Origin: Arachidicoccus terrestris
GTDB taxonomy: Bacteria; Bacteroidota; Bacteroidia; Chitinophagales; Chitinophagaceae
Direction: 5' to 3'
DNA: 64,000 nucleotides
Assembly: GCF_020042345.1 (NCBI RefSeq)
Contig: NZ_CP083387.1
Span: 868,001 to 932,000, forward strand
Part shown: positions 39,761-62,696 of the stretch, one piece after another
Layout of the letters: the number at the start of each line of letters is the position of its first letter
Position numbering within the stretch: position 1 is the stretch's first letter
Position numbers and translations under genes: made by a program
Notes under the pieces: model-generated
Seen by the model: only the letters and a program-made list of their open reading frames with translations
Database searches by the model: none
Told to the model about the DNA's origin: nothing

Positions 39761-39792
39761 TTTGGCATTTCCAGGTAAGGCTTTTACATTTG
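39761..39792 (+). promoter_or_regulatory. promoter of the SRP RNA gene
   Basis: TTTG (39761-39764), 20 bp, TACATTTG (39785-39792): a textbook Bacteroidota promoter. The predicted start is about 39797-39799, exactly where the SRP RNA helix begins. Confidence 0.85.
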
Positions 39793-39797
39793 CACCC

Positions 39798-39892
39798 GGC
39801 AGGTCTCACACGGCCAGCTCCTACTGAATCCTCCCAGGGCCGGAAGGCAGCAAGAGTAGGTGGTTGTAGCGGCGCGATGTGAGTAGCCTGCC
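39798..39892 (+). ncRNA. ffs: signal recognition particle 4.5S RNA
   Basis: The conserved domain IV apex is present around 39835-39855 (CAGGGCCGGAAGGCAGCAAG), with the GGAA-type tetraloop and the asymmetric A-rich loop that binds Ffh. The ends GGCAGGTCTCACA and TGTGAGTAGCCTGCC pair to close a single long hairpin of about 95 nt, the usual size in this phylum. A T-rich stretch (TTCTTTATT) follows. It would direct signal-peptide proteins to the membrane. End positions are accurate to a few bases. Confidence 0.93.
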
Positions 39893-40025
39893 TTCTTTAT
39901 TACCTCCCCTATTACATAGATAACAATCGCCATAAACGACATAAGGATCGTTTTTTTAGCTTGTTTAGCGCTATCAACTAAATGTAAATTTTTCGATCTT
40001 ATTAAGCCTATCTTTAATTTTTGCG

Positions 40026-56584: not shown

Positions 56585-57934
56585 CTAATTTCTGGCATAA
56601 AAGAAGGAGGAAAATGAGGGATTTGCCATTTTTTCGCACTTCGATAATTTTTTTTCAATGTTCACGAAGTCGGAAAAATTAATATTTACACTTTGCGCCC
56701 AATTTTCAACTCTACATCTATTTATAATATCACCAGTAGTAACCCTTTGCTTTTTAATATTTACGTACCATTTAGGCCCAGGGAGTTGTTTTTTTGATTT
56801 GGACTGCTGCTGTTTGTGCGATGCCAGTATCATCATAGCATAACATGCGGATACAAATGCCGGAACTTTTGCTACCGCAGTTTTTTCCCGGATTTGTGCC
56901 TGACCACATCCCATTAATGTTTTCTGATCTCTAAAGCCGACTTCTATCTCCCATCTTCTAATATAAGCCTGGACCTGCAGGAAAATATCTATCTCTTGAT
57001 TGGTTGATATTAAATAGGCGGGAGCACGATACAGTAATTTTGATTTTTTGGTGAGCCTATAGGAAACTGGCCTGATAATGATCAGCATTAAGTCTCTCTT
57101 ACCTGATTTTCGCCAGCGTATATCTTTTACAACTTTCACATTGAATGTACGCATCTTTCCTGCAGCCCATGCTTCAACCTGCTGATAAGGATAGTCATCG
57201 CTTTGTCGGATTTGTTCTGGTGTGGGGAGCTCTTCTCCATAATATCGTTTACGTCCCTTTCCTGATTGTTGCTCTTCTGGTAGAGCATAAATTTTTGAAT
57301 CCTTCCTTATGCGGCCAATGAGTTCTACATTTTCTGGAAGTTGCCTTAAAACAGTTCCATTCGTGTAACTGCCGTCCACGCTCAGGATAAGTTTTTTATT
57401 TTTATAGCCATCGTCATCTAAGCACTTTCTCAAGGCTATGACACGCTGGACGCCTACTTCGCTCATTTTTTCTTTCTTCTGTCTTTCCCGGTATAGTGCT
57501 ACTTCCTGGTCGGTCGCATTTTTTGACGGCTTCTTGGTGGGAGGACAATGTTTGAAGTCTACCGGGATGGCCCTTGATGGACCGCAGAGGTCTTTTTCAA
57601 TGAGCGATAAAGAGAGTTGAACAAATCGTTGGCCCCAAATGAAATTATTACAAAACGGGGGGCCAAGTGGATCCCTTAGCCATCCGGTCCCTGATATTTT
57701 CTTCCCTCTCTTCCTTAACAGGGTATCGTCCATGTGTGCATAAATAAAATCGCCTTTCTTTCTATTTTGATACACGACCTCCTTTCTAACTTCAGAAAAA
57801 ATTGCATTCATATCCATTCTTTCACCCTTAAATATTCGATAGGCCGCACTCCAGTCCTTAAACTGATTCCCACTTGCTGTTAACATCCCTGTTATCGTAC
57901 AACGTCCAATACATGAAATAACTCCGTGAGACAA
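56585..57934 (-). CDS. IS4/IS701-like DDE transposase
   Basis: 449 residues from a TTG at 57934, but protein-like sequence continues upstream in the same frame to about 58010 (CFNELFDRCITAFKQSRTFQ) without any ATG/GTG/TTG, so the true N-terminus is longer and probably reached by frameshifting from the AbrB-like ORF. DDE residues: Asp in YAHMDDTLL, Asp in LILSVDGSYTNG, Glu in the exact YREK signature YIRRWEIEVGFRDQK. The stop codon overlaps the left inverted repeat. Confidence 0.9.
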   Translation of the reverse strand: MSHGVISCIGRCTITGMLTASGNQFKDWSAAYRIFKGERMDMNAIFSEVRKEVVYQNRKKGDFIYAHMDDTLLRKRGKKISGTGWLRDPLGPPFCNNFIWGQRFVQLSLSLIEKDLCGPSRAIPVDFKHCPPTKKPSKNATDQEVALYRERQKKEKMSEVGVQRVIALRKCLDDDGYKNKKLILSVDGSYTNGTVLRQLPENVELIGRIRKDSKIYALPEEQQSGKGRKRYYGEELPTPEQIRQSDDYPYQQVEAWAAGKMRTFNVKVVKDIRWRKSGKRDLMLIIIRPVSYRLTKKSKLLYRAPAYLISTNQEIDIFLQVQAYIRRWEIEVGFRDQKTLMGCGQAQIREKTAVAKVPAFVSACYAMMILASHKQQQSKSKKQLPGPKWYVNIKKQRVTTGDIINRCRVENWAQSVNINFSDFVNIEKKLSKCEKMANPSFSSFFYARN

Positions 57935-58011: not shown

Positions 58012-58221
58012 CTACTCCTTCTTTTTGGGGAGTTTTTTTTTAAGATCTTTTACGGATTCATCACTACGCTGAAGTACTAGGCGCTGGTGATCATCTATCA
58101 CCCACTCAACAATCTCTCCTTGCTTAAATTCTATTGCCTGAGCCACGGCAGCTGGAAAATTTACATACCATTGCTCACTCTTTGCTCTTTTTATTATCTG
58201 AATTTTAGTTGGATATCCCAT
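58012..58221 (-). CDS. AbrB/MazE-like small DNA-binding ORF within the IS element
   Basis: 69 residues: PTKIQIIKRAKSEQWYVNFP and AVAQAIEFKQGEIVEWVI follow the swapped-hairpin AbrB/SpoVT pattern, with a Lys-rich tail (KKKLPKKKE). It lies upstream of the transposase inside the inverted repeats, with the transposase in the -1 frame relative to it. A run of nine A (58033-58041, complement) lies just before its stop and could promote -1 frameshifting or transcript slippage into the transposase frame. It may regulate transposition or give the transposase a DNA-binding N-domain. Confidence 0.7.
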   Translation of the reverse strand: MGYPTKIQIIKRAKSEQWYVNFPAAVAQAIEFKQGEIVEWVIDDHQRLVLQRSDESVKDLKKKLPKKKE

Positions 58222-59217: not shown

Positions 59218-59592
59218 TCATGGACTGTTCCTATGATTTTTTCGAAAGTTTCCCGGCGTTTCTCCCGTCCATTTCTTAAAGAATTTAGAAAAATTGGAAG
59301 GATCATAGGTAAGCACCATGGCGATATGTGCGATTGAGCCGTCAGTCTCCAAAAGCATCTGCCTGGCTCTGTCAATGATTTTTGCATCATAAAAATAACA
59401 GGGATGTTTCCCTTTAATCTTCCGGACAGTATCCGACAGATGCCCATGTGAAATGGCCAGCTCCTGCGCAATTTGCCCCAGCTCCATAAATGCTGTTGCT
59501 TTGCCGCTAATCACTTCCTCTATATGCCGATCCAGAAAATCAAAATAAGCTTCAATAATCTCAGTACTTCTTTTAGGTTGTTCTCCTTCCAT
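59218..59592 (-). CDS. single-domain AraC-family regulator
   Basis: 124 residues, consisting almost only of the AraC double HTH: SHGHLSDTVRKIKGKHPCYF (first HTH) and IAHIAMVLTYDPSNFSKFFK (second HTH) with the family PSNFSKFFKKWTGETPGNFR ending. There is no ligand-binding cupin. It likely regulates the SDR gene just downstream and itself: both are preceded by the same 17-bp motif at a similar distance (50 and 59 bp). Confidence 0.88.
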   Translation of the reverse strand: MEGEQPKRSTEIIEAYFDFLDRHIEEVISGKATAFMELGQIAQELAISHGHLSDTVRKIKGKHPCYFYDAKIIDRARQMLLETDGSIAHIAMVLTYDPSNFSKFFKKWTGETPGNFRKNHRNSP

Positions 59593-59668: not shown

Positions 59669-59896
59669 CTTTTAACGCAGTAACAAAAAAATGGGCGGGC
59701 TAGCAACCAGCGAATAGATACTTCAGTTATTATGATAAGTCGGTCTGGCCGGCCGGTGGGGCACAAACCCATCTCTGGCAAACAAATTCATGTCAACAAT
59801 ATTCCGGCCAGTAAACACCTGTAGTAATAAAAATGGACCTCCCGTTATCAGGAGATCCAGATTTTTAATCTAGCGTTTAAATGCTTTCAAAACGCA

Positions 59897-59968
59897 CTAG
59901 ATACCTCCGACGCCCAAACTGTCTAGAAGTGCAGTCAAGATGGCGATTAATTTGGCTAAAATGTCCAT
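59897..59968 (-). CDS. 23-aa hydrophobic micropeptide A
   Basis: Begins MDILAKLIAILTALLDSLGV and ends after three more residues. Mostly Leu/Ile/Ala with one Lys and two Asp at helix-compatible spacing, hence an amphipathic or membrane helix. ATG begins one base after the leader stop (TAA-A-ATG), implying translational coupling. Closely parallel to micropeptide B (shared ILTALL-SLG core). Too short for common gene callers. Confidence 0.6.
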   Translation of the reverse strand: MDILAKLIAILTALLDSLGVGGI

Positions 59969-59969
59969 T

Positions 59970-60017
59970 TTAAATAGGTTTAAAGTTAGCGCTTACTCTA
60001 TTCAGGGTTTTCAGCAT
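59970..60017 (-). CDS. 15-codon leader ORF of module A
   Basis: MLKTLNRVSANFKPI, preceded by AAGGAGGG at the right distance. KTLNRVS is also encoded in one frame of module B, with one synonymous change, but there the ATG is missing, so the RNA element may be what is conserved. Confidence 0.45.
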   Translation of the reverse strand: MLKTLNRVSANFKPI

Positions 60018-60216
60018 AGGCCCTCCTTGCAAGTATTACCAAAGTTAAACCTGGCTATGTCATTTTTTGTCAAACGGTTTTGTATTCAATTAAATTATAT
60101 TCAATTTAAAAATAATTTAATAGTATAAAAGTCTTATTCCCAGATGGTTAAAAATCAAACCGGCACTTTGTTCAGATTTCACATTATACGGTAATATAAA
60201 GTAGGCACATGCACCA

Positions 60217-60456
60217 TAAAAAATCTCCCGAAATTTCGGGAGATTCAAACTCTTAATCTTGAGTTCTCTGAAAACTTTGTAAGCTTACTAGAGACCCAAG
60301 CTGCCTAAAAGTGCAGTCAATACGGCTAATAACGTTGTTAAGATTCCCATTTTTGACAAATTTTTAAGTGAATGCTTACTCTGTTCAGGGTTTTCGGCTT
60401 GCCCCTCCTTGCAATTGATACCAAAATTATAGGAACCTATGTCATTTTCTGTCAAA
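60217..60456 (-). other. micropeptide module B: promoter, leader, hydrophobic peptide, terminator
   Basis: Same order as module A: TTTG (60453-60456)-23-TAATTTTG (60422-60429), AAGGAGGGG, conserved leader (GAAAACCCTGAACAGAG), peptide ORF 60350-60288, and a perfect 24-nt palindrome (60222-60245) with T-run. Shared blocks with A in the promoter, leader and coding parts show tandem duplication with divergence. Confidence 0.7.
60288..60350 (-). CDS. 20-aa hydrophobic micropeptide B
   Basis: MGILTTLLAVLTALLGSLGL. Entirely uncharged apart from the termini, and would span a membrane as a short helix. It aligns with micropeptide A over the ILxxL-A-LTALL-SLG pattern. Flanked by a module-specific promoter and a perfect terminator hairpin, which argues that it is expressed as a short mRNA of about 200 nt. 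Confidence 0.6.
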   Translation of the reverse strand: MGILTTLLAVLTALLGSLGL

Positions 60457-60588
60457 CGCTTCAAGATAACGAAACGAGGCCCGTTTATTGTTCAATTATC
60501 TGGGACATATTGAAGATATAAAGCCAGGCGCCTATTTAATTCCCAAATGTCGATTTCACATTAAATAAAGCATCTCTTTACAACAGTC

Positions 60589-60623
60589 AAAAAACCCACA
60601 TGCAGATCTACATGCACGTGGGT
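60589..60623 (-). terminator. rho-independent terminator of gyrB
   Basis: ACCCAC-G-TGCA and TGCA-T-GTGGGT form a stem with one mismatch and an 8-nt loop, followed on the minus strand by a run of six T. Located 50-80 bp after the gyrB stop. Confidence 0.85.

Positions 60624-60671: not shown

Positions 60672-62696
<2,025 letters not shown>

Follow-up and report, generated by a model that had tools for sequence, protein, structure and literature searches.

The window analysed here (C1:868001-932000; 64,000 nucleotides) belongs to the genome of Arachidicoccus terrestris, which has a size of 4,901,925 bases. Between gyrB (60672-62675) and an ORF for an AraC-type helix-turn-helix protein (59218-59592), it holds two minus-strand cassettes, A and B, each composed of a TAnnTTTG promoter, a leader, a tiny ORF and a hairpin:

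60440..60454, minus strand: operator-like TGACA-N5-TGACA, cassette B (motif search)
60422..60429, minus strand: TAnnTTTG (-7) element, cassette B (motif scan)
60373..60407, minus strand: DUF805b leader, pseudoknot, cassette B (40.9 bits, cut-off 35.6; pairing counts)
60288..60350, minus strand: peptide B, MGILTTLLAVLTALLGSLGL (ORF)
60221..60246, minus strand: terminator hairpin B (folding)
60058..60072, minus strand: operator-like TGACA-N5-TGACA, cassette A (motif search)
60040..60047, minus strand: TAnnTTTG (-7) element, cassette A (motif scan)
59990..60024, minus strand: DUF805b-like leader, cassette A (18.2 bits, below cut-off)
59897..59968, minus strand: peptide A, MDILAKLIAILTALLDSLGVGGI (ORF)
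59834..59859, minus strand: terminator hairpin A (folding)

The two peptides comprise 20 and 23 residues. Sequence, ORFs, promoters and hairpins lie where a preliminary description of this DNA had placed them, and the 23-bp spacing that it reported, TTTG-N23-TAnnTTTG, is exact in both cassettes, which account for the only two occurrences of this pattern on both strands of the whole window. We take TAnnTTTG to be the Bacteroidota -7 element. The terminator hairpins fold with -16.5 kcal/mol (B; z -3.1) and -18.9 kcal/mol (A; z -5.1), and T-rich DNA follows the hairpin in both cassettes.

The DUF805b leader and its second stem

The leader of cassette B matches the Rfam family RF02914 (DUF805b, type cis-regulatory) and, with 40.9 bits, passes the gathering score of 35.6; the leader of cassette A stays below it (18.2 bits) and is filed as DUF805b-like because its tandem homologue B is 76% identical. 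The shared leader of the preliminary description is present in both cassettes and belongs to a known RNA family. Like DUF805b RNAs, the cassette leaders have the same hairpin, GAAAA and AGAGUARGC; unlike in the printed model, which consists of one stem, a second stem is supported here, and the gene behind the leader is a 20-aa ORF. Among the titles and abstract openings listed in a literature search, neither the cassettes nor DUF805b came up as the subject of a paper.

The first stem, P1, covaries: at a fixed offset, 373 of 436 cells are paired in 109 leaders, as compared with a mean of 209 and a maximum of 250 in 5000 shuffles (since the leader sequences are related, these and the following shuffle figures are not probabilities), and sliding P1 by one base either way yields 240 and 255 paired cells. 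The second stem, P2, is a possible pairing of the base triplet in front of GAAAA with the final triplet of the AGAGUARGN tail. In the Infernal-derived loci L001-L007, L023-L051 and L107-L166, a regex gave 112 hits, and one of these, which has no P1 stem, was dropped from the P2 set. With a regex that fixed part of the 3' arm and a permissive P1 filter, P2 is complete in 104 of the 111 leaders (mean 71.7 and maximum 81 in 10,000 shuffles), and in 95 of 111 if only Watson-Crick pairs are admitted (shuffle mean 56.1, maximum 68); the pair types include GCC/GGC, GCU/AGC, UCC/GGA and ACC/GGU. In 28 newly fetched loci, searched with a regex that did not constrain the three 3' bases, all P2 pairs are present in 31 of 36 cases (shuffle mean 13.2, maximum 22), a count that retains four misses (out of five) lying away from the Infernal match and apparently due to chance regex hits; CCC/GGG appears there as a new pair type. 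The second stem is backed by covariation, and the leader is therefore assigned as an H-type pseudoknot. The printed one-stem Rfam line cannot show a pseudoknot, so that Rfam may already know the second stem. When pseudoknots were disallowed, leader plus ORF folded more weakly than shuffled sequences (z +1.8 and +1.2).

Two elements of the preliminary description dissolve into this structure. AAGGAGGG, part of the conserved leader in that description, is the 5' arm of P1 rather than a conserved Shine-Dalgarno sequence, and AAGGAGG is absent from the other three copies in the same genome. The Shine-Dalgarno-led leader ORF of 15 codons in cassette A, for which coupling to the peptide ORF had been suggested, is the pseudoknot read in frame; of the six further cassettes in the genus, the one in genome G002 alone has the leader-ORF ATG, with a stop after 5 codons. 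Translational coupling via this ORF was rejected, as the ORF is not kept in other copies.

In the A. terrestris genome, five RF02914 matches at E 0.01 correspond to four cassettes and to locus L005, where a 149-aa ORF stands behind the leader; cassette A, the fifth, comes next with E 0.03, and the leader of L007, with a 109-aa ORF 85 nt downstream, has E 0.05. The leader is hence not specific to peptides, as the matches at L005 and L007 precede other genes. Matches at E 0.01 were obtained in 44 of 59 genomes of relatives (26 over the cut-off), and across the phylum 76 of 296 genomes match at E 1e-5 (59 over the cut-off). The 14 control genomes yielded matches in none at 1e-5, two at 0.01 and all at E 10, none of them over the cut-off at any threshold tried.

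Behind 108 of the 109 leaders with enough downstream DNA, an ATG ORF of at least 15 aa starts 8-95 nt downstream, with a median gap between leader and ATG of 22 nt (quartiles 18.75 and 27); two sites (L152, L141) are counted twice in these figures. The ORFs have a median length of 129.5 aa, many longer ones being cut by the locus end, and because the rule took the longest ORF, a wrong frame was picked at least once (L001 at 1715). Judged by eye, many leader-linked products start with a signal-like or GG-leader-like stretch. Among ten chosen products, Pfam recognized TM2, DUF805 and bacteriorhodopsin-like proteins over cut-off and one DUF6520 match below it, leaving six without any match; NCBIfam had no match for the seven leader-linked products submitted. 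Rhodopsin-like genes lie behind DUF805b leaders at L025 (Pfam) and at L142 and L247 (by their likeness to L025, seen by eye). In Pedobacter steynii (L065, 2356-4672, plus strand), five DUF805b-like leaders follow one another, each with a short protein behind it; these proteins are similar and begin with MANWY or MAKWY.

Peptide family and promoters

The A. terrestris genome holds five leader-peptide cassettes. Further carriers are two congeners (G002 and G004, one cassette each), three other genomes of the family, among them G011 with two cassettes and G030 with three, and Chitinophaga silvatica; in G034 and C. silvatica, the peptide behind the leader is a 35-aa relative in kind. The cassettes often stand in tandem (the window pair, a pair near 2810k in the same genome, and the sets of G011, G030 and C. 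silvatica, where the second ORF of the pair is cut by the locus end). Since copies of the cassette occur elsewhere in the genome and in relatives, the peptides are regarded as real.

Eleven peptides align to the consensus MxILxxLLAxLxxLLGSLGL. Three peptides remain outside the profile and are grouped with the others by leader, length and hydrophobicity only: the last of the three in G030, the 35-aa peptide of G034 and the one from C. silvatica (L057). A profile search of related genomes, a route indicated in the preliminary description, recovered leader-peptide cassettes in genus and family. Three of six congener genomes match, G002 among them, and three do not. Across 147 family genomes, six match at E 0.1, four of which (G000, G004, G011, G030) are sources of the profile cassettes; the matches in G227 and G261 were discarded as chance, having no leader in the 300 nt upstream and, in G261, starting at CTG, and this search added no member beyond the input cassettes. 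The proposal of selected tiny peptides in self-contained units is supported by a frame kept in relatives and a pooled pN/pS of 0.37 (0.249/0.675; 21 non-independent pairs, 19 codons), a figure that is rough because the peptides are leucine-rich. The cassettes are real, selected and duplicating one-gene units with a leader from a known RNA family.

The leucine-rich peptides are almost uncharged, with a net charge of 0 or -1 in 13 of 14. The 'amphipathic' build ascribed to them is weak: the hydrophobic moment lies in the top 5% of shuffles for five of the 14 peptides, but not for the window pair (0.148 and 0.072). Neither window peptide scores above the cut-off of any Pfam or NCBIfam family, and the peptide family is without a match in the libraries searched. 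The smalltalk protein (NF033879) is likewise a short hydrophobic Bacteroidota peptide, which B matches weakly, but it has a basic start; membership was rejected (B 12.3 bits, cut-off 24.7; A no match), and the 300 nt upstream of five smalltalk genes over cut-off contain the leader pattern in no case. A relationship to a solved structure was also rejected, all 11 matches being cullin with E 1 or worse.

Four of the five A. terrestris cassettes share TGWCA-N5-TGACA-N10-TAnnTTTG; the one at 2810538 has no operator match, and the 94 nt that follow the preceding stop contain no TAnnTTTG. If up to one mismatch is allowed, operator plus promoter occurs 17 times in six congener genomes (3 in the reversed control). 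The seven exact matches lie at cassettes in A. terrestris (four), G002 and G004, and in G005 without a cassette. Of the ten one-mismatch sites, four precede a gene for a secreted protein (A. terrestris, G002, G003, G004), two precede a gene for a WCX-domain regulator (A. terrestris, G004) and four have no such link. In the A. terrestris copies, which were the ones scanned, the WCX domain was found in a 343-aa regulator and a T9SS sorting domain in a 779-aa protein; at L209 (3311-7364, minus strand), the genes for both stand behind the TGTCA-N5-TGACA palindrome of the peptide promoters. This palindrome occurs at six places in the genome, four of them in these promoters (reversed control, three places); the window copies read TGACA-N5-TGACA and are not full palindromes. 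The WCX domain presumably marks a WYL-type regulator, and such a regulator perhaps binds the operator.

In the three-peptide array of G030, each cistron has its own pseudoknot. A TAnnTTTG lies 36 nt upstream of the GAAAA of the first leader, and none lies in the 56 and 64 nt between the previous stop and the second and third leaders; the intervals from leader to leader in the 2810k pair, in G011 and in C. silvatica likewise contain none. Such absence is weak evidence for a shared promoter, because the 120 nt ahead of the first G011 leader also lack a TAnnTTTG. A leader for each cistron with no TAnnTTTG in between points to translational control.

Possible functions of the cassettes

The most likely explanation, held with modest confidence, is that the cassettes are stand-alone units whose peptides are membrane-active and whose expression is controlled by operator and pseudoknot, a function that is predicted. 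The unit would be a one-gene cassette for a peptide of ~20 residues, and transcription would start at the TAnnTTTG promoter overlapped by the TGWCA-N5-TGACA operator, perhaps bound by the WYL-type (WCX) regulator, whose own promoter carries a one-mismatch copy. The short mRNA would begin near the H-type pseudoknot, which ends ~22 nt before the AUG and thus would be near the edge of a bound 30S subunit. The phylum Bacteroidota makes little use of Shine-Dalgarno sites; the pseudoknot may, instead of such a site, set or gate translation of its cistron. At this length, which roughly matches the thickness of a membrane and leaves no room for both a signal peptide and cargo, the product most likely works in or on membranes, either as an exported peptide or as an inner-membrane effector. 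This reading builds on the cassettes and their paralogues, the kept frame, the covarying pseudoknot and the shared promoter and operator. Against it weigh the leaders at L005 and L007, which stand before other genes, the hydrophobic moments of most peptides, the missing TAnnTTTG ahead of the first G011 leader, the three congener genomes that lack a profile match, the exact operator match in G005 with no cassette, and the weak folding when pseudoknots are disallowed.

Secretion of the peptides to act on neighbours, in the manner of phenol-soluble modulins (PSM) or leaderless bacteriocins, is possible but doubtful. PSM-alpha peptides presumably resemble the window peptides in having ~20 residues, no signal peptide and a tandem arrangement; for peptide A, Pfam lists PSM-alpha (PF17063; E 0.081) and no other family, and many of the ORFs behind DUF805b leaders elsewhere appear exported or GG-leader-like by eye. 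However, A scores 13.4 bits against a cut-off of 23 and B is not listed, so that membership was rejected; the peptides are not cationic, as their net charges show, and no recurring neighbour such as a transporter was seen by eye.

Type I toxin-antitoxin modules, in which the peptide damages its own cell's membrane and an antisense RNA silences it, appear unlikely. Small size, hydrophobicity, tandem paralogues and stand-alone intergenic units speak for them, and type I toxins are, as we assume, similar to the window peptides in size and hydrophobicity. Unlike in type I systems, the searches for an antisense RNA gave no candidate: on the plus strand, 59701-60600 has no TTG/TTTG-N17-25-TAnnTTTG, and beyond 29 bases the genome shows similarity to A or B only in the cassettes themselves and in the L007 leader. 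Both tests would miss shorter antisense pairing or a promoter of another type. The leader, moreover, is common to many other kinds of gene. The abstract of PMC12390103 states at its opening that, until that work on Cyanobacteria, type I systems were known from Proteobacteria, Firmicutes and Tenericutes alone; given this range, the outcome of a toxicity assay would be informative either way.

An RNA that is itself the functional product, with an incidental ORF, would suit a short independent unit with conserved RNA structure, yet is very improbable, as the frame is kept (pN/pS 0.37) and similar peptides occur in other genera.

Membrane-active peptides under operator and pseudoknot control may form part of a broader scheme, which we propose tentatively: DUF805b could be a portable Bacteroidota pseudoknot by which translation of many short exported or peptide genes is driven or gated independently of Shine-Dalgarno sites, and the ~20-residue peptides could be a new signal-less membrane-active family, co-controlled with the WYL-type regulator and the T9SS-sorted protein. 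If so, an orphan RNA motif would gain a testable job, and a family would be added to the peptides that may be short enough for gene callers to miss.

Genomic setting

In five of five congeners, the 1.5 kb downstream of gyrB contains neither leader nor operator, and in three of the five a GSCFA gene lies within this distance. In A. terrestris, an SDR, a MazE-like ORF (under cut-off) and a DDE transposase also lie in the interval from gyrB to the GSCFA gene; these contents, together with the absence in congeners, make the stretch look like an insertion. By eye, gene order around the 2810k pair is the same as around the single G002 cassette, and the 332k cassette and the G004 cassette have differing neighbours; no gene, for example a transporter, recurs beside cassettes of different loci (seven loci, by eye).

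The transposase ORF (DDE_5) occupies 56585-57934 of the window on the minus strand, between gyrB and the GSCFA gene, and the MazE-like ORF of 69 aa lies at 58012-58221, also on the minus strand (Pfam 21.4 bits, cut-off 24.7). At Rfam gathering thresholds, the window has two matches, one of which is the leader of cassette B; a Bacteroidales small SRP RNA (RF04183) lies at 39790-39897 on the plus strand, with 99.9 bits.
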